Assembly: GCA_022795855.1 (NCBI GenBank)
Contig: JAAWHL010000003.1
Span: 1 to 58,845, forward strand
DNA: 58,845 nt
Direction: 5' to 3'
From: Lawsonibacter sp.
GTDB lineage: Bacteria; Bacillota; Clostridia; Oscillospirales; Oscillospiraceae
In this document: positions 2-25,409 of the stretch, one piece after another
Numbering within the stretch: the first letter of the stretch is position 1
How the letters are laid out: every line of letters starts with the position of its first letter
The notes under the pieces: model-generated
Databases searched by the model: none
What the model saw: only the letters and a program-made list of their open reading frames with translations
What the model was told of the DNA's origin: nothing
Position numbers and translations under genes: made by a program

Positions 2-1372
2 GGCAACCTGGAGCCTGCCATCGGCGTGGAGATCAAGTATGTGGAGGGCCTGGAGGGCAGCAACATCATGCTGCTCAAGCGCAGCGACATCAAGGTCATT
101 GTAGACATTCTGATGGGCATGGAGACGCCGGACGAGGACTTTGAGCTCAACGAGCTGACCATCAGCTGCGTGTGCGAGGTCATGAATCAGATGATGGGCT
201 CGGCCGCCACCGCCATGTCCGATTTCCTGGGGTTCCGGGTGGACATCTCCACCCCGGAATCTTTCGAGCTGAACAGCCTGGATGAGTTCAAGGAGAACCA
301 CCTGCCCCAGGGAGCGGACCAGATTGTGGTCGTCCGGTTCTTCCTGAAGGTGGAGGACGCGCTTGAGAGCGAGTTCATGAACGTCATGTCGGTGGCCCTG
401 GCCCGGGAACTGCTGGGCAGCCTGGGGCTGTCCGGCGAGGTGAGCGGCGGAGAGGGAGCCCAGGCGGCCGCGCCTGCCCCCGCGCCCGCGCCCGCGCCGG
501 AACCGGAGCCTGCCCCCAGCAACCGGATGATGAGCCAAGAGGAAATCGAGCGGATGCTGGCAGGCGGAGGGGACGCGCCCGCGCCCGCGCCGGAACCGGA
601 GCCTGCCCCCAGCAACCGGATGATGAGCCAGGAGGAAATCGAGCGGATGCTGGCAGGCGGAGGGGATGCCCCCGCGCCCGCGCCGGAACCGGAGCCTGCC
701 CCCAGCAACCGGAAGATGAGCCAGGAGGAGATTGAGCGGATGCTGGCGGGCGGAACGGACGCCCCCGCTCCCGCCGCCCCGGCCCCCGCTCCCGCCCCTG
801 CCCCGGCCGCTGCGCCGGCGCCGGCCCCCGCTCCCATGCAGCAGCCTGCCGCGCCGGCGGCCCGGGCCCCGGGAATGCCCGCGGGCCAGCCGGGCCAGCC
901 CATGATGCAGATGCCCTATCCCATGCCCGGCCCGGACGGGACGATGCAGGGATATATGGGTTATCCTATGTACTATCCGCCTTACCCCTACCCCTATCCG
1001 CCCCAGCAGCCCCAGGAGGCACCCAAGCCCGAGCCCAAGGTCATCAGCACCAGGCCGCTGCCCATGGAGCAGATGGACCCTGCGGAGCGCTTAGGCAAGG
1101 AGCAGGCCCAGAACCTGGACCTGATTATGGAGGTCCCCCTGCAGGTGACGGTGGAGATCGGCCGGGCACGGCGGAAGGTCCAGGACATTCTGGAGTTTTC
1201 CAAGGGCTCGCTGGTGGTGCTGGATAAGCTGGCCGGCGACCAGGTGGACCTGTTCGTCAACGGCAAGTGCATCGCCCGGGGCGAGGTCGTGGTCATTGAG
1301 GACAACTTCGGCGTCCGGATTACGGAAATCGTGCAGAACCCCGGGCTGGAGATGCTGGCCGCAAAGGGTTAA
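2..1372 (+). CDS. fliY: Flagellar motor switch phosphatase FliY (5' partial)
   Basis: C-ring protein that binds CheY-P and dephosphorylates it. The gene runs off the left edge; the open frame is continuous from base 2, so the GTG at 26 is not taken as the start. An N-terminal CheC-like domain (about the first 140 visible residues) has a CheC phosphatase-type E-x2-N motif (CEVMNQ). A Pro/Ala-rich linker of about 200 residues follows, holding three copies of SNRxMSQEEIERMLAGG and a Met/Pro/Tyr-rich stretch. A C-terminal FliN domain (about the last 85 residues, LQVTVEIGRARRKVQDIL and RGEVVVIEDNFGVRITEI) completes it. CheY follows 64 bases downstream, as in Bacillus. The linker is longer and more repetitive than expected for FliY. 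Confidence 0.95.
   Translation, partial: GNLEPAIGVEIKYVEGLEGSNIMLLKRSDIKVIVDILMGMETPDEDFELNELTISCVCEVMNQMMGSAATAMSDFLGFRVDISTPESFELNSLDEFKENHLPQGADQIVVVRFFLKVEDALESEFMNVMSVALARELLGSLGLSGEVSGGEGAQAAAPAPAPAPAPEPEPAPSNRMMSQEEIERMLAGGGDAPAPAPEPEPAPSNRMMSQEEIERMLAGGGDAPAPAPEPEPAPSNRKMSQEEIERMLAGGTDAPAPAAPAPAPAPAPAAAPAPAPAPMQQPAAPAARAPGMPAGQPGQPMMQMPYPMPGPDGTMQGYMGYPMYYPPYPYPYPPQQPQEAPKPEPKVISTRPLPMEQMDPAERLGKEQAQNLDLIMEVPLQVTVEIGRARRKVQDILEFSKGSLVVLDKLAGDQVDLFVNGKCIARGEVVVIEDNFGVRITEIVQNPGLEMLAAKG
497..775 (+). repeat. Three tandem 93-bp repeats in fliY
   Basis: Units start at 497, 590 and 683, each exactly 93 bases (31 codons) and nearly identical. Each encodes PEPEPAPSNR, then M/K, then MSQEEIERMLAGG and an Ala/Pro tail. 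The third unit differs most (K for M, T for G). Confidence 0.95.
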
Positions 1373-1436: not shown

Positions 1437-1805
1437 ATGTCGAAGAAGATTTTGTTAGTGGATGACGCCGCCTTCATGCGCATCATGATTAAGGACACCC
1501 TGAGCAAGAACGGTTATACCGAGCTCTTTGAGGCGGTGGACGGCGCGGACGCTGTGCAGAAGTACGCCGAAATCAGCCCCGATCTGGTAGTCATGGACAT
1601 CACCATGCCCAACATGGACGGCCTGCAGGCCCTGAAGGAAATCCGCGCCAAGGACGGAAACGCCAAGGTTATCATGTGCTCCGCCATGGGCCAGGAGGGC
1701 ATGGTGGTGGACGCGGTGAAGTCGGGCGCCCGGGACTTTATCGTCAAGCCCTTTAAGCCCGACCGCATTGTCCAGGCGGTGAACAAGGTTCTGGGAGCAC
1801 CCTGA
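1437..1805 (+). CDS. cheY: Chemotaxis response regulator CheY
   Basis: Stand-alone 122-residue receiver domain that carries the signal from CheA to the motor switch. The acidic pocket is D9/D10 (LLVDD), the phosphoacceptor is D54 (VVMDITMPNMDG), the switch hydroxyl is S82 (VIMCSAMGQ) and the conserved lysine is K104 (VKPF). Ser rather than Thr at the switch position is, from memory, also found in Bacillus CheY. The ATG has a Shine-Dalgarno AAAGGATGG at 1421-1429. It lies between fliY and fliO, the typical Firmicute position. Confidence 0.96.
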   Translation: MSKKILLVDDAAFMRIMIKDTLSKNGYTELFEAVDGADAVQKYAEISPDLVVMDITMPNMDGLQALKEIRAKDGNAKVIMCSAMGQEGMVVDAVKSGARDFIVKPFKPDRIVQAVNKVLGAP

Positions 1806-5107: not shown

Positions 5108-7216
5108 TTGCTCAAACGTATTATGGACAATGCCATAGCGCTGTTTGTGGTGATTGTGGTTCTGTTCCTGTTCATCCCGCTGCGGCCGTGGATGCTGGAT
5201 ATTCTGCTGATTATCAACATCGGGCTTTCGATTATGATCCTGATGATTACCATGAACATCACGGACGCGCTGGATTTCTCCATTTTCCCATCGCTGCTGC
5301 TGATTACCACGCTGTTCCGGCTGGGGATGAATGTGTCCAGCACCCGGATGATTCTCACCACCGGCGACCCCGGCGAGGTCATCAAAAACTTCGGAAACCT
5401 GGTGACCCAGGGCAATGTGGTGGTAGGCTTCGTTATCTTCTTCATCATCGTGCTGGTACAGCTGATTGTCATCACCAAGGGCGCGGAGCGCGTGTCCGAG
5501 GTGGCCGCCCGCTTCACCCTGGACGCCATGCCGGGCAAGCAGATGGCCATTGACGCGGACCTGAGCTCCGGCCTGATCGACGAGCAGGCCGCCCGCCTCC
5601 GCCGGGAGAAGATTCAGAAGGAGGCCGACTTCTACGGCGCCATGGACGGCGCCACCAAGATTGTCAAGGGCGACTCCACCATGTCCATCGTCATCACCGT
5701 CATCAATCTGGTGGGCGGCATCATCATCGGCATGGTGGTCAACGGCGGCAGCTTCGGCGATGTGGTCAGCCGCTACTGCATCCTCACCATCGGCGACGGA
5801 CTGGTATCCCAGATTCCCTCCCTGATGATTTCCACCGCCACAGGCATGATTGTCACCCGTTCGGTGTCCGAGGGCAGCCTGAACGTGGACGTGGTGAACC
5901 AGTTCAAGGCCCAGCCGAGGGCCATTATGACCACCGGCGTCATCCTGCTGATTCTGGGGGCCATTCCCGGCACGCCCACCGTCCCGCTGCTGGTGGGCGG
6001 CGTGGCCCTGGTGGCGGGCGGCATCCTCGTCACCCGGCAGCTGGAGGCCCAGCGGGCGGCCGAGGCCGCGGCGGTGCAGAGCGCCGCCGCCGAACCCGCC
6101 GAGGCGGCGGCCCCCAGCGAAAGCGACTACTACAAGGACATCAACAACGTCTATTCCCTGCTGTCAGTGGAACCGGTGGAGATGGAATTCGGCTACAGCC
6201 TGATTCCCATGGTGGACGAAAACCACGGGGGAAAACTCATCAGCCGCATCGTGATCTTCCGGCGGCAGTACGCCCAGGATATGGGCTTCGTCTTCCCCTC
6301 CATCCGCCTGCACGACTCCTCCGCCCTGGGCACCAACCAGTATGTCATCCGCATCAAGGGCGAGGAGGTGGCCCGGGGAGAAATCCTGGTGGACTACTAC
6401 CTGGCCTTGGAGCCTCCCAGCCCCCTGGGGGAGATTGACGGCATTGAAACCATCGAGCCGGCCTACGGCATCCCCTCCCGGTGGATCCTCCCCGAGAACA
6501 AGGAGATGGCGGAAATCTACGGCTACAACGTCATTGACCCCCTGTCCGTCATGCTGACCCATCTGGCCGAGACGGTAAAGAAGCACGCCCACGAGCTGCT
6601 CAACCGGGCGGAGACCATCCGGCTGGTGGAAAACCTGAAGCGCACCTCCCCCGAGCTGGTGGAGGAGGCGGTGCCCAGCCTGATTTCCTACGGCAATCTG
6701 GAGAAGCTGCTGCGTAGCCTGCTTCAGGAGGGGGTCCCCATCAAGGACCTGAACACGATCCTGGAGACGGCGGTGGACGCCGCAGCCCAGGGCCGGGATA
6801 TCGACATGATTACCGAGCAGGTGCGCGGCGCTCTGGCCCGGACCATCACCCGCCGCTTCTGCGAGGACGGCCAGCTGCGGGTCATCACCCTGGACGCCGA
6901 GGTAGAGAAGAAGATTATCTCCTCCCTCACCCGGAACGAGCAGGGCGTCTATCTGGCCATGGGCCCGGAGCTGATGCAGACCATCATCTCCCAGCTGGCC
7001 GAGCACCTGAAGAAGTTCGGTGATTTGGCGCAGACGCCGGTCATCCTGGTCAGCCAGGTGATTCGGGGCTATTTCAGCAAGATGATTACCCAATTCTACC
7101 CCAACGTCTATGTGCTGTCCTTCAATGAGATTACCAGCAGCGTGCAGATTCAGGCACTGGGGAATATTACGGCCGACGCCCCCGCCCGGGGTGAGCGAAG
7201 GGCGGTGGGGACATGA
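5108..7216 (+). CDS. flhA: Flagellar export protein FlhA
   Basis: Largest export-gate subunit: about eight N-terminal membrane helices and a cytoplasmic domain that docks export substrates and chaperones. It has 702 residues. The FHIPEP signature region includes ITTLFRLGMNVSSTR and KGAERVSEVAARFTLDAMPG. The linker between membrane and soluble parts is Ala/Glu-rich (about residues 316-340). The start is TTG at 5108 with a strong AGGAGGTGACC just upstream. The stop overlaps the fliA start (ATGA). In Bacillus flhF and flhG follow flhA; here fliA follows directly. Confidence 0.97.
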   Translation: MLKRIMDNAIALFVVIVVLFLFIPLRPWMLDILLIINIGLSIMILMITMNITDALDFSIFPSLLLITTLFRLGMNVSSTRMILTTGDPGEVIKNFGNLVTQGNVVVGFVIFFIIVLVQLIVITKGAERVSEVAARFTLDAMPGKQMAIDADLSSGLIDEQAARLRREKIQKEADFYGAMDGATKIVKGDSTMSIVITVINLVGGIIIGMVVNGGSFGDVVSRYCILTIGDGLVSQIPSLMISTATGMIVTRSVSEGSLNVDVVNQFKAQPRAIMTTGVILLILGAIPGTPTVPLLVGGVALVAGGILVTRQLEAQRAAEAAAVQSAAAEPAEAAAPSESDYYKDINNVYSLLSVEPVEMEFGYSLIPMVDENHGGKLISRIVIFRRQYAQDMGFVFPSIRLHDSSALGTNQYVIRIKGEEVARGEILVDYYLALEPPSPLGEIDGIETIEPAYGIPSRWILPENKEMAEIYGYNVIDPLSVMLTHLAETVKKHAHELLNRAETIRLVENLKRTSPELVEEAVPSLISYGNLEKLLRSLLQEGVPIKDLNTILETAVDAAAQGRDIDMITEQVRGALARTITRRFCEDGQLRVITLDAEVEKKIISSLTRNEQGVYLAMGPELMQTIISQLAEHLKKFGDLAQTPVILVSQVIRGYFSKMITQFYPNVYVLSFNEITSSVQIQALGNITADAPARGERRAVGT

Positions 7217-8055
7217 GCAGCGCGGTGGAGCAGCGCCGCTACACCCAGCGGGAGATCGAGGAGATGAGCACTCCTGACCTGCTCGCCGCCTACAAGCAGA
7301 CCGGGGACGAGGAGCTGAAGTGGCCCCTGGTCCTGCGGTACGAGGGACTGATTAAAAGCGCGGCCCTCCAGATTCGGGGGGTTTACAGCAGCTTTGCCCA
7401 GGTTGACGACATCGTCAGCGAGGGTATATTGACCCTGATTACCTCTATTGACAAGTTCGACCCGGAGAAGGGAATCAAGTTCGAGACCTATGTGGCCAAG
7501 CGCATCCGGGGGATGGTCATTGACCTGGCCAGGAAGCAGGACTGGCTTCCGCGGAACATCCGGCAGCGGGCCAAGGAGATTGACCAGGCCGTGTCCGAGC
7601 TGGCCAACGACCTGGGCCGCTTCCCCACCGACCAAGAAGTGGCCCGGAAGCTGGGGGTCTCCACCGACAAATACCAGAAGGACGCGGCCAGGGTGGCCCT
7701 GAGCAACACCCTGTCCCTGGACGCCCTGATGGACGCCCAGGACCTGGAGGGCCGCCGGTTCGAGGTGTCCGCCGAGGATCCCAGCGTGCAGCCGGAGGCG
7801 GTGTACCAGAACCAGGAGCTTCAGGAGACCCTGGCCCAGGGGATCAGCGCACTTCAGGAAAACGAGCAGATTGTGCTGTCCCTCTACTATGAGAAAAATC
7901 TCCACATGAAGGAAATTGCCCAGGTGATGGGGGTCAGCGAGCCCCGCATCTCCCAAATCCACGCCCGGGCGATTCAGAAGCTGCGGGAGTATATGGGCAC
8001 CTACATGAACGGCGCCCCGCCCCAGAAATCCACCAAAAAGCGGAAGAAGGTATGA
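7213..8055 (+). CDS. fliA: RNA polymerase sigma-28 factor (FliA/SigD/WhiG family)
   Basis: Sigma factor for late flagellar and chemotaxis genes. The 280-residue protein has sigma region 2 (DDIVSEGILTLITSIDKFDP, RIRGMVIDLARKQDWLPRNIR), region 3 (SELANDLGRFPTDQEVARKLG) and region 4 with a helix-turn-helix (HMKEIAQVMGVSEPRISQIH). Its ATG overlaps the flhA stop by four bases, so the pair is coupled. Its likely targets in the window are the promoters at 14750, 32837 and 37646. Its likely antagonist FlgM is encoded at 32470-32778. The C terminus has a short basic tail (KSTKKRKKV). Confidence 0.95.
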   Translation: MSSAVEQRRYTQREIEEMSTPDLLAAYKQTGDEELKWPLVLRYEGLIKSAALQIRGVYSSFAQVDDIVSEGILTLITSIDKFDPEKGIKFETYVAKRIRGMVIDLARKQDWLPRNIRQRAKEIDQAVSELANDLGRFPTDQEVARKLGVSTDKYQKDAARVALSNTLSLDALMDAQDLEGRRFEVSAEDPSVQPEAVYQNQELQETLAQGISALQENEQIVLSLYYEKNLHMKEIAQVMGVSEPRISQIHARAIQKLREYMGTYMNGAPPQKSTKKRKKV

Positions 8056-9591: not shown

Positions 9592-9606
9592 TAGGGAGGA
9601 TTGAGA

Positions 9607-10233
9607 ATGGGAATCAAAAATTATGACGAGCTGAACTCCCTGGAGCTGGACACGCTGCGGGAGGTGGGCAGCATCGGCACCGGAAACGCGGCGACCGCGC
9701 TGTCCCAGATGCTCAGCCGCGAGGTGCGCATCACCATGCCCGAGGTGCGCATCATGGGCTATAACGAGGCCATCGAGTGGATTGGCGGCCCGGAGGAGAT
9801 TACCGCCGGCGTGCTGGTCAAGCTCAGCGGGCAGCTGACGGGGATTATGCTCTCCGTGCAGCAGCTGGATTTTGTCAACCTGGTGCTGGACAGCATCATG
9901 TCCAAGAAAATCGAGGATTACAGCCAGCTGACCGAGCTGGAGAACTCCGCCCTGGTGGAGGTGGGCAATATCATGATCTCCACCTTTATCAACGCGCTGA
10001 GCGGCCTGGCCGACATTGACATCAAGCTGACGGTGCCCGCCTTCACGGTGGACATGCAGGGCGCCATTCTGGCGGTGCCTATGGCTGAATACGGCGGTCA
10101 GTCCGACTATATCATGACAATCGGAGGCAACTTTGTCTGCGAGAACAAGCAGGTCCCCTGCCGCCTGCTCATGTCCCCCGACCTCCGGTCTTTGAATGTT
10201 TTATTAAGGAAACTAGGCGTGAGTAATGAGTGA
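9607..10233 (+). CDS. cheC: CheY-P phosphatase CheC
   Basis: Dephosphorylates CheY-P and binds CheD in Bacillus-type adaptation. About 208 residues. The ATG at 9607 is preferred over the in-frame TTG at 9601 because ATAGGGAGGA (9591-9600) sits at proper spacing. The family has two E-x2-N active-site motifs. The second is intact (ALVEVGNIM); in the first the sequence reads REVGSIGTGN, with Ser where Asn is expected. The last 8 bases overlap cheD. Confidence 0.94.
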   Translation: MGIKNYDELNSLELDTLREVGSIGTGNAATALSQMLSREVRITMPEVRIMGYNEAIEWIGGPEEITAGVLVKLSGQLTGIMLSVQQLDFVNLVLDSIMSKKIEDYSQLTELENSALVEVGNIMISTFINALSGLADIDIKLTVPAFTVDMQGAILAVPMAEYGGQSDYIMTIGGNFVCENKQVPCRLLMSPDLRSLNVLLRKLGVSNE

Positions 10234-10705
10234 TAAGCTGATTATTGGGATTGCAGATATGAAGATGGCCGCAGGCAGCGGAATGCTGGTCACCTATGCC
10301 CTGGGATCCTGTATTGGCATCTGCCTGTACGACCCGGTGATTAAGCTGGGAGCGATGGTGCATATCATGCTCCCGCTGAACATGGAGGCAGGGCGGAAAA
10401 ATACTATGAAATACGCGGACACCGGAATTAAGGAAACCCTGCGGCAGATGGAGGCCAAGGGAGCAAAGCGGTCGAGAATCACCGCCAAAATTGCCGGCGG
10501 GGCGAAAATGTTCGAGGACAGCGGCGGTTCCCTGGGGAACATCGGCCAGCGCAACATCGACAGCGTCCGCCTGAACCTGAAGAAGGAGGGCATCCGCCTG
10601 CTGAAGGAGGACGTGGGCGGCTCGGTGGCCCGGACGCTGCTGTTTGACGTGAGCAGCGGCCTGGGGTGCGTGCGCAGCTACGGCCGCCCGGAGATGATAA
10701 TTTGA
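10226..10705 (+). CDS. cheD: Chemoreceptor glutamine deamidase CheD
   Basis: Deamidates glutamines on chemoreceptors and is regulated by CheC. The 159-residue protein keeps the papain-like triad: C29 in YALGSCIG, H46 in AMVHIMLP and a Thr at T23. It also has the conserved IGQRNI segment. The ATG at 10226 lies inside the end of cheC, giving coupled translation, the usual cheC-cheD arrangement. Confidence 0.95.
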   Translation: MSDKLIIGIADMKMAAGSGMLVTYALGSCIGICLYDPVIKLGAMVHIMLPLNMEAGRKNTMKYADTGIKETLRQMEAKGAKRSRITAKIAGGAKMFEDSGGSLGNIGQRNIDSVRLNLKKEGIRLLKEDVGGSVARTLLFDVSSGLGCVRSYGRPEMII

Positions 10706-10735
10706 CCCGGCGCAAATAGAAGGGAGTGCTAGGAA

Positions 10736-11671
10736 ATGATGGAAGACAGCAAACAGGGGATCCTGCTGGAGTCTGGGACCAATGAGATTGAAATCATGAA
10801 ATTCACCATCGGCGGAAACCTGTACGGCATTAACGTGGCCAAGGTCCGCGAGATTATGATCTCCGCACCGGTCAAGCCCATGCCCCATGCCCATGCGGCT
10901 GTGGAGGGCATCTTCAAGCCCCGTGACACCGTGCTGACGGTGGTGGACCTGCCCAGCTATCTGGGCGTGGCCAGTGAGAAGAACCCCAAGGATATTTTCA
11001 TCATCACCAACTTCAACAAGATGTTCATCGCCTTCCGGGTACACGCGGTGGACCGCATCAGCCGGATTTCCTGGACCGACATCCAGAAGCCGGACAAGAC
11101 CGTCTCCGGCGGCACGGAGAGCATTGCCACCGGCATCGCCCAGTGCGACGGGGAGCTGGTCACCATTCTGGACTTTGAGCGCATCGTGGCGGAGATTGCA
11201 CCGGAGACCAGCATCCAGATTGCCGAGGTGGAGGGCCTGGGCCCCCGGGAGCGCAACGAGCGTCCCATCTGGGTGGCGGAGGATTCCATTCTGCTGAGCA
11301 AGATGATTGAGGACTCCCTGCGCAAGGCGAACTATGTCAATCTGCGCATGTTTTCCAACGGCCTGGAGCTGTGGGAGGCGCTGAGCGCCCTGCCCTCCGA
11401 GGGGGAACTGTTCAAGGACGTGGCTTTGATTATCACTGATATCGAGATGCCCCAGATGGACGGCCACCGCCTGACCAAGCTGGTGAAGGACCACACCCGG
11501 TTCAAGCAGGTTCCCCTGATTATTTTCTCCTCCCTCATCAGCGAGGAGATGCGCCGCAAGGGCCGGGACTTGGGCGCCGACGAGCAGCTGACCAAGCCGG
11601 AAATCGGCCATCTGGTGGATGTTATGGACCACCTGCTGCTGCATCAGAATAAGCAGGCCAACGCAGGCTAA
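10736..11671 (+). CDS. cheV: Chemotaxis coupling protein CheV (CheW-REC fusion)
   Basis: Couples receptors to CheA and acts in adaptation through its own phosphorylation. The N-terminal CheW domain (about residues 15-160) includes GGNLYGINVAKVREIM and EGIFKPRDTVLTVVDLPSYLG. The C-terminal receiver domain (about 178-305) has the acidic pair in VAEDS and the phosphoacceptor Asp in LIITDIEMPQMDG. Length 311 residues matches Bacillus CheV. AAGGGAGTGC (10720-10729) precedes the ATG; a second ATG follows immediately. Confidence 0.95.
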   Translation: MMEDSKQGILLESGTNEIEIMKFTIGGNLYGINVAKVREIMISAPVKPMPHAHAAVEGIFKPRDTVLTVVDLPSYLGVASEKNPKDIFIITNFNKMFIAFRVHAVDRISRISWTDIQKPDKTVSGGTESIATGIAQCDGELVTILDFERIVAEIAPETSIQIAEVEGLGPRERNERPIWVAEDSILLSKMIEDSLRKANYVNLRMFSNGLELWEALSALPSEGELFKDVALIITDIEMPQMDGHRLTKLVKDHTRFKQVPLIIFSSLISEEMRRKGRDLGADEQLTKPEIGHLVDVMDHLLLHQNKQANAG

Positions 11672-13203: not shown

Positions 13204-13881
13204 CTACCTGCTGTGGTGGGGGGTCTCCATGACAATTTTGCAGGCCTGGAGCAGCTGAGCGGTGATGTCGCTGCTGAACTTCCCCTCGTACACAGTCAGG
13301 CGGGGAATCATGTCCCCGTGCTCCAGCACCACATACTTGGAGGGAAGGTGGTTCAAGGTCAGGGCCTTCACGTCCTCCAGACAGCGGTCGCACTGGCACA
13401 GGCCGAACATTTTGATGTATTTCGGCGCTTTCTCCTCCACCAGGACCTGCATCACGTTGATATAGCCGGGGCTCTTGGGGACGGCGAACACATGGGGCTC
13501 CTCCTGAGCGGGGGCTGCCTGCTGCACGGGGGCTGCCTCCTGAATGGGGGCCGCCGGCTGAGCGGGGGCCGCCTCCTGGGCGGGGGCCTCCGGCTGGACG
13601 GGGGGCTCCTCCTGGGCGGGAGCGGCCTGCTGTACGGAGACAGAGACGGCCTGCCCGGGGCCCAGCTCGTCCTCCAGCGCGTCCTCCAGGGCGTTCTTAA
13701 TCTGGACCGACACCGCGGCGTCGGGGGCCAGGGAGGAGATGATGGGGGGGACCGGGGCCGCAGGAGCGGCAGGGGCGGCGGGAGCGGCCTCGACGGTCTC
13801 CTCGGCGGGGAGCTCCTGCTTCTTGCTCAGCAGGTTCATCACCCGCGCAGTCTTGCTGGTCTTGCTGTCTTTGGATGCCAT
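13204..13881 (-). CDS. ComFB-domain protein with Pro/Ala-rich linker
   Basis: 225 residues: a basic N terminus, a long Pro/Ala/Gln-rich linker (about 28-130) and a C-terminal ComFB domain (about 135-222). The domain is recognised by FGLCQCDRCLEDVKALTLN followed by HLPSKYVV, matching the ComFB Cys pattern and the LALN-LPPxY-like motif. ComFB was named for the Bacillus comF operon; family members have been reported as cyclic-dinucleotide receptors, some affecting motility. AAGGAGAG precedes the ATG at 13881. The ParA gene lies 17 bases upstream, so the two form an operon. The linker suggests a tethered domain; its partner is unknown. Confidence 0.8.
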   Translation of the reverse strand: MASKDSKTSKTARVMNLLSKKQELPAEETVEAAPAAPAAPAAPVPPIISSLAPDAAVSVQIKNALEDALEDELGPGQAVSVSVQQAAPAQEEPPVQPEAPAQEAAPAQPAAPIQEAAPVQQAAPAQEEPHVFAVPKSPGYINVMQVLVEEKAPKYIKMFGLCQCDRCLEDVKALTLNHLPSKYVVLEHGDMIPRLTVYEGKFSSDITAQLLQACKIVMETPHHSR

Positions 13882-24377: not shown

Positions 24378-25409
24378 ATGCCATTTGGTAAGAAGAAAAA
24401 AGAGCCGAAGGAGCCCAAGGAACCGAAGGAGAAGAAGCCCAAAAAGCCGAAGAAGGAAAAAAAGCCGAAAAAGGAGAAAGCGCCTAAGCAGAAGAAGGAA
24501 AAAAAGGCGAAGGACCCAAATAAAAAGAAGAGTCCCGTCAAGATCCTGATTCCGCTGGTGCTGGCAGTGGTGGCTGCGGCGGCCTTTTTCCTGATGAAGC
24601 CCAAGGAGACCGAGGAGGAGCCCAAAGCGCCTGAGCTGCCCGCGGAGTACAAGGTGGGCGAGCTGGCGGTCACGGGCCTGACGGTGGGTGAGGAAGAGCT
24701 GGAGGTCCAGGCGGAGCTGGCCAAGACGGTACAGTATACCTACACCGATTTGAAGGACGCCGCCGCCGCCGTCTCGGGCTATGTAAGCGCGCTGACCGCA
24801 GAGAGCCCCAGGTTCTCCGTGGTGGACGAGGAATTTGTCCGGACGGAGCGGCCGGATTTCACAGCCCAGGAGGGCATGGTGCTGCTGGCCCGGAACATTG
24901 AGAAGGAGGCCGAACCGGAGGCCGACGCGGAGGCTGACAGCTCTCAGACCGGGGACGGCTCTCAGACCGGGGACGGTTCCCAGGCGGAGGTCCAGGCTGA
25001 GGAGGAGGTCAGCATGGTGCTGACCGTAAGGATTGAGTGGTCCCCCGGGGTCTGCGTGGTAACTGCGGATGAGGCGGAAGGAACCGTTACCTCGCCTCCG
25101 CCGTCGGAAAGCAGCATGGGCGGCGGACAGAGCATCGGCCTGCACGAGGCACAGAGCCGCCTGGAGAACATGGAGCCTGCGGAACTTGGACTGAGCGGGA
25201 CTTCCATGGACGAATACGAGGTGTTCCCCCTGGACGGTGTGGTCATGGTGGACAGCGAGCCCTGTGTCCGGGTGAATATCTACAGCAATCAAAACGCCCA
25301 GAACAGCAATGAGTTTATGGGCAGCTTCCTGATGAGCATGAACGACGGGACGCTTTATCGGCTGGACCCCGCCACCGGGAAGGTGAGCGAGGTAGAGCTA
25401 TCCGACTAG
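24378..25409 (+). CDS. Single-pass membrane protein with Lys-rich cytoplasmic tail
   Basis: Not recognised. 343 residues: about 55 N-terminal residues almost wholly Lys, Pro and Glu (repeats of KKPKKPKK type), one membrane helix (about residues 57-76, ILIPLVLAVVAAAAFFLM) and an acidic extracytoplasmic domain with a Gln/Thr/Gly repeat (QTGDGSQTGDGSQ). The ATG at 24378 is used; an in-frame GTG lies at 24366. Co-directional with the FtsA-like gene 89 bases upstream and ahead of a terminator, so the pair probably works together. Confidence 0.75.
   Translation: MPFGKKKKEPKEPKEPKEKKPKKPKKEKKPKKEKAPKQKKEKKAKDPNKKKSPVKILIPLVLAVVAAAAFFLMKPKETEEEPKAPELPAEYKVGELAVTGLTVGEEELEVQAELAKTVQYTYTDLKDAAAAVSGYVSALTAESPRFSVVDEEFVRTERPDFTAQEGMVLLARNIEKEAEPEADAEADSSQTGDGSQTGDGSQAEVQAEEEVSMVLTVRIEWSPGVCVVTADEAEGTVTSPPPSESSMGGGQSIGLHEAQSRLENMEPAELGLSGTSMDEYEVFPLDGVVMVDSEPCVRVNIYSNQNAQNSNEFMGSFLMSMNDGTLYRLDPATGKVSEVELSD

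Follow-up and report, generated by a model that had tools for sequence, protein, structure and literature searches.

In motors of the Bacillus subtilis type, FliY both reads and hydrolyses CheY-P. The catalytic motif of CheC is D/S-xxx-E-xx-N. The N-terminal peptide of FliM is a short helix on a flexible tether. The N-terminal peptide of FliY is contained in the first 36 residues of the protein, which fits the FliYs with an N-terminal peptide (N-type) seen in this analysis. For Geobacillus and Bacillus, one study reports that these 36 residues are necessary and sufficient for FlhG binding (PMC12327844). Another paper, where it deals with the N-termini of FliM and FliY, states that all motile bacteria have the EIDALL motif in these two proteins (PMC9126983). 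A crystal structure that pairs Thermotoga maritima CheY with the N-terminal region of FliM is listed among the references of a further article (PMC6946799), and a review states that T. maritima FliY has no higher affinity for activated CheY than for inactive CheY (PMC7355467). In the fliY gene at the start of the window (the whole stretch of 58,845 nucleotides that was analysed), an EIDALL-like peptide is placed elsewhere, in three tandem copies between the two domains of the protein (Table 1).

The repeat array of fliY and its neighbourhood

Table 1. Positions of fliY, its domains and repeat units, and two neighbouring genes in the window
Feature	Position	Strand	Basis
fliY, 5'-truncated by the contig start	2..1372	+	456 of 510 residues; NCBIfam PRK08119, Pfam, C100 overlap
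CheC-like phosphatase domain, part held by the window (rest on contig C100)	2..436	+	phmmer limits, Pfam, catalytic motifs
Pro/Ala-rich linker, 210 residues	437..1066	+	domain limits by phmmer; AF2 model of relative L219 mostly of low confidence here
93-bp repeat unit 1	497..589	+	peptide core MSQEEIERML at 530-559
93-bp repeat unit 2	590..682	+	peptide core at 623-652
93-bp repeat unit 3	683..775	+	peptide core at 716-745
FliN (SpoA) ring domain of FliY	1067..1369	+	Pfam FliMN_C, phmmer limits
cheY, likely ligand	1437..1805	+	Pfam Response_reg 108.9 bits; PDB phmmer E 5.2e-46
fliA-like sigma factor	7213..8055	+	overlaps the end of flhA (5108-7216); names flhA and fliA from translations

Tandem Repeats Finder assigns a 93-bp period with 3.2 copies and 94% matches to positions 481-774, and three copies lie in frame within the single open frame 2-1372, each encoding MSQEEIERMLAGG. 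The triplicated peptide-encoding units at 497-775 of the preliminary description are therefore real. The frame scores 263.9 bits against the FliY family model PRK08119 of NCBIfam, above the cut-off of 218, and 101.1 bits against the fliN domain model. Pfam matches CheC at window residues 55-87 of the fliY frame and FliMN_C at residues 374-444 (80.2 bits), the C-terminal FliN/SpoA domain being present. Because of these positions the repeats fall between the CheC and FliN domains, and together with the phmmer limits they bear out the earlier placing of the array in a Pro/Ala linker. Both CheC catalytic motifs, DALGEMMN and SCVCEVMN, are found in the FliY sequence joined from the window and contig C100. 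Among PDB entries, the CheC part matches 4hyn best, a structure of T. maritima FliY. When both strands of the 2.5 Mb genome assembly are searched for the pattern [S/T/C/W/R]-Q-[D/E]-[E/D/Q/H]-I-[D/E], 10 matches appear, three of them the repeat copies; a reversed control pattern has none there. Folding of the repeat RNA gave a weak signal (z-score -2.17; 3 of 100 shuffles were equally good). A minus-strand frame (187-903) is open across the repeats, as is common in GC-rich DNA.

cheY is the next gene after fliY, and its best PDB matches are CheY chains, including 1tmy and 4iga, the latter being the T. maritima complex of CheY and the FliM N terminus. At 9601-11671, a separate cheC and then cheD are followed by a CheV-like gene with CheW and receiver parts (10736-11671), so that additional CheY-P regulators lie beside FliY. 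Tandem repeats were also seen in a minus-strand frame among the flagellar and chemotaxis genes (13204-13881), where a Pro/Ala/Gln linker with an 18/36-bp period (13494-13637) lies between two non-repetitive ends, and at 24407-24514, where an open plus-strand frame holds a Lys/Pro/Glu-rich repeat.

The linker peptide: likeness, copy number and spread

The preliminary description had likened the repeated peptide by eye to the N-terminal peptides of FliM and FliY, and had named beforehand a profile alignment as a test that could refute this. A profile HMM was built from 39 N-terminal FliY 12-mers from other species, with no linker copy in the training set. The window linker scored 14.9 bits, and all three copies were found at more than 8 bits each. 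Among 11,900 shuffled linkers the maximum was 8.0 bits, and none reached 10. At least 10 bits were reached by 113 of 119 linkers of the linker class, by none of the 69 linkers of N-type FliYs and by none of the 40 linkers without the motif, in a comparison that is not fully independent, the linker classes and the training peptides having been chosen by regular expressions of similar form. An HMM built from 89 FliM 12-mers only was much weaker: the window scored 6.1 bits, 17 of the 119 linkers reached 10 bits, and one of the 11,900 shuffles (9.9 bits) exceeded the window. With a crude FliM-only matrix with small pseudocounts, superseded by the HMMs with standard priors, the third copy scored 6.2 and each of the first two -0.06, and one of 20,000 shuffles lay above the third copy. 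This matrix penalises E in place of D heavily. E stands at FliM's D position in nearly all linker copies, and the EIE form is already found in two N-type FliYs of the window's family (LSQEEIEAMM in L044 and LTQDEIEKMM in L046). The likeness thus survived its test with the N-terminal FliY profile and is weak with the FliM-only one. We call the linker peptides EIDALL-like and do not count them as members of the FliM/FliY CheY-binding peptide, because they are internal and not at the protein N terminus. A chance resemblance due to low complexity is ruled out by the shuffled-linker scores and by the conservation of the core.

This conservation was followed in 86 genes with at least two copies, which gave 215 copy pairs that are not independent of each other. 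Between copies within genes, codon differences in the core S, Q, E, I, E are silent in 221 cases and replacing in 48 (about 4.6 to 1), against 766 silent and 1244 replacing (about 0.6 to 1) at the other positions of the 24-codon frame; the core ratio is biased upwards because decayed copies escape the regular expression. The core Q and I show no replacing change in 88 differences. Ten near-copies outside the regular expression have core changes that include E to G, E to A, S to G and I to V, and a fourth copy of L008 with E to G lies outside the motif count. Judged from these codon differences, the peptide core is conserved within a fast-changing linker. By motif, 119 linker-type FliYs have one (34), two (35), three (41) or four (9) copies; by HMM, 124 have one (41), two (40), three (37), four (5) or five (1). 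The copies are spaced by a median of 31 residues (23-46), and the linker grows with them, with medians of 132.5, 171, 196 and 207 residues for one to four copies. A permissive pattern that covers the two catalytic motifs of CheC was found in 117 of the 119 linker-type FliYs. In L160, L161, L163 and L165, a FliY-like frame carries two or three CheC domains ahead of a single FliN domain, and separate short FliN frames adjoin those of L161, L163 and L165.

For the relative L219, a protein of 479 residues, AF2 predicted a structure from 35 sequences at a mean pLDDT of 69.5, with high confidence in the CheC domain and about 67-72 in the FliN domain. Helices are predicted at 230-237, 261-269 and 292-299, on the three peptides whose cores start at 228, 259 and 290, and their ten-residue blocks have pLDDT of 70, 75 and 68 against 45-52 for the neighbours. 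A further linker helix is predicted at 339-352, off any peptide (block pLDDT 64). Between the last peptide and FliN, in L219 (339-352) and across alignment A1, linkers have at least two alternative segments, rich in Met/Ala (GSMMAAMMTAMTTA) or Tyr/Pro (GYMGYPPMYYPPYPYPYPP), and some have Gln-rich segments.

FliY was matched in 35 of 61 genomes of the genus, the window's own included. Among 29 fetched congener FliYs, 25 have one to four linker copies (minima in three of them that are also cut), three have none, and in one the contig stops within the motif; an N-terminal peptide was found in none of the 29. Since three of the 29 carry no copy, the linker peptide is dispensable there. Searches of the family and the order gave FliY matches in 32 of 120 genomes (27 above the cut-off) and 56 of 297 genomes (47 above it), and these stretches yielded further FliYs of both N-type and linker type. 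A contig scan with an alignment of linker-type FliYs, and hence biased towards that type, gave 79 FliYs in its best 80 loci; the expression finds one or more linker matches in 76 and an N-terminal match in none. Within these loci, Flavonifractor plautii ATCC 29863 has two copies, Oscillibacter valericigenes Sjm18-20 four, Anaerotignum neopropionicum one and Clostridium sp. 12(A) two, and copies also occur in records labelled Lachnospiraceae. The top identities to the window FliY among them belong to Oscillospiraceae, Oscillibacter and Clostridiales metagenome records, so that the window probably comes from a member of the Oscillospiraceae. A phylum survey found no linker match in 60 fetched FliYs, all of them top hits of a profile containing the N-terminal peptide, and because of this profile it sets no limit on the spread. 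The count in related genomes that the preliminary description had called for shows that linker peptides are widespread and not peculiar to the window genome.

Replacement of the N-terminal peptide and candidate partners

Within the same genome, contig C100 shares an exact 91-bp overlap with the window and supplies the 54 residues of FliY that the window lacks. FliY starts there with MEKVIFSPMAIDALGEMMN, four bases 3' of the fliM stop, and inspection of this start shows that the protein has no N-terminal CheY-binding-like peptide, so that the additional N-terminal copy suggested earlier as worth checking is absent. The FliM of this genome, which starts with MAEVLSQSQIDALLSS, keeps its own peptide. 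The proposed multiplication of capture sites per FliY would rest on three linker copies, which are not additional to an N-terminal one; they stand in for it. Of 228 FliM loci whose 5' end is intact, pooled over all FliY classes and with six FliM frames cut at the 5' end left out, 227 keep the N-terminal motif of FliM; in the lone exception (L026), the contig edge falls within the motif.

With the N-terminal FliY HMM at 5 bits, 239 FliYs were divided into 124 with linker peptides, 76 with an N-terminal peptide and 39 with neither, and none has both. L155, with masked letters, had been removed before this count, and some species are represented twice by loci from two collections. L051, L056, L199 and L240 have the motif by the expression and less than 5 bits by the HMM; they are counted as neither here and as linker-type in the tree, and L051 and L056 also in the FlhF tally below. 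After removal of 11 FliYs without the FliN part at contig ends, which applies to the 119 linkers as well, a tree of 228 rows, confined to the CheC and FliN domains, was built with FastTree and midpoint-rooted. One branch with support 97 has all 119 linker-type FliYs on one side and 74 of 75 N-type FliYs on the other. The exception, L079, lies at the base of the linker side and is a doubtful N-type, its peptide match running into the CheC domain; it is counted as N-type in the HMM division, in the tree and in the FlhF tally. Otherwise the linker side starts with lineages having neither peptide, among which the linker-type FliYs are nested; six FliYs with neither peptide lie on the N side. The peptide states need at least 14 changes. 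Because the linker side begins with peptide-less lineages, this one quick tree of FliY itself makes it likely that the N-terminal peptide was lost before the linker peptide was gained once or twice, followed by changes of copy number and repeated loss. L107, L249 and L252 may represent a second gain.

We consider it quite probable that each repeat is a CheY-P docking peptide, lost from the N terminus and then regained and multiplied in the CheC-FliN linker. It would be of the FliM/FliY kind, L/M-S-Q-x-E-I-E/D-x-L/M-L/M. The ancestral FliY of the lineage would have lost its N-terminal copy; a later copy would have appeared in the linker that joins the CheC phosphatase to the FliN ring domain, and tandem duplication would have multiplied it, with gains and losses of copies since. 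Each peptide would bind CheY-P in the same groove as the FliM peptide and deliver it to the CheC domain and the switch. The helices, about 31 residues apart, would sit on a tether with one end anchored in the C-ring and the other carrying the phosphatase, and because this tether is flexible, CheY-P would be held near both switch and enzyme. FliY would remain a switch-located CheY-P sink without an N-terminal peptide, and the copy number may set the local capacity for CheY-P capture.

The binding of FlhG reported for the first 36 residues of FliY would also allow the linker peptides to dock this MinD-like ATPase and to serve C-ring assembly. FlhF above the family cut-off was found in none of 37 linker-type genomes, against 14 of 22 N-type genomes, and in one of 21 with neither peptide (G088); it is below the threshold in 65 of 80 flagellated genomes searched within the family and order, most of the genomes in these FlhF and FlhG surveys being incomplete drafts. 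The FlhG query exceeded 200 bits in five of six FlhF-bearing genomes tested, a strong hit not being found in the sixth (G241). In 22 linker-clade genomes (21 linker-type and the peptide-less G007) it reached at most 65.4 bits, the level of MinD/ParA. The window genome gave no FlhF match and a best FlhG-query hit of 43.8 bits, and the ORF table has neither flhF nor flhG between flhA and the fliA-like gene (5108-8055); in G179 both genes sit between the end of flhA and the corresponding sigma factor. With FlhF in none of the linker-type genomes and no strong FlhG match in the linker clade, FlhG is a highly improbable partner. Eight N-type genomes lack FlhF, and three of these (G092, G157 and G238) have no strong FlhG hit either; FlhF loss alone therefore does not entail loss of the peptide.

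A different target for the peptides, such as the receiver domain of CheV, the CheC domain of FliY itself or an adjacent subunit of the C-ring, would accord with the CheV-like gene in the window and with an EIE form slightly unlike the QIDALL of FliM. We regard it as improbable, for the N-terminal FliY peptide profile scores best and some N-terminal peptides are already EIE. Neutral change offers a less remote account, in which a single linker copy is functional and the others result from slippage of a GC-rich linker, their number having no effect. Copy number is indeed labile, even among congeners, the spacers are low-complexity and repeat-prone, and some copies have decayed. The excess of silent differences in the core, even if biased upwards, and the separate origin, in other FliYs, of additional peptide-like copies ahead of CheC speak against it, and we think it unlikely.

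The reading of the repeats as CheY-P docking peptides may be carried further, although here we lean against it: loss of FlhF/FlhG would have freed an N terminus that serves both FlhG and CheY-P, and the peptide would have been lost and re-evolved in the linker as an expandable CheY-P antenna, with a species-tuned copy number that sets how much CheY-P is held and destroyed by the C-ring. A clade with zero to four copies and a moved docking peptide would be a natural series for the role of this peptide in capture for hydrolysis, in switching or in both. Its coincidence with missing FlhF/FlhG would pull apart the two roles attributed to the N terminus of FliY.

Comparison with known systems

The literature searched, which omits most subscription journals, gave no description of FliY peptides placed in the linker or repeated in tandem. 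The statement that EIDALL is universal in the N-termini of FliM and FliY (PMC9126983) would need refining. The N-terminal peptide is usual in FliY yet not defining, as the FliYs with neither peptide at 5 bits show.

The window FliY shares with B. subtilis-type FliY (PRK08119) a CheC domain with two catalytic motifs, a FliN domain and a CheY-binding-like peptide in the protein, and its neighbours, fliM upstream and cheY downstream, are a further likeness. It differs in the position of the peptide, which is in the CheC-FliN linker and not at the N terminus, and in that no FlhF or FlhG was found in the genome. Several peptide-like copies before CheC were seen in some N-type FliYs, two each by HMM in L075 and L076; visual inspection gives four for L044 and three or four for L072, some of them degenerate. 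These FliYs and that of the window are both multi-copy, but in the former the copies precede CheC and FlhF is present in all four genomes. With the N-terminal peptide of FliM (EIDALL), the linker copies have in common the core S-Q-x-E/Q-I-D/E-x-L/M-L/M; a comparable short helix on a flexible tether is predicted for those of L219, at pLDDT of only 68-75. Unlike the FliM peptide, the window copies are internal and tandem, with E for D and often M for L.
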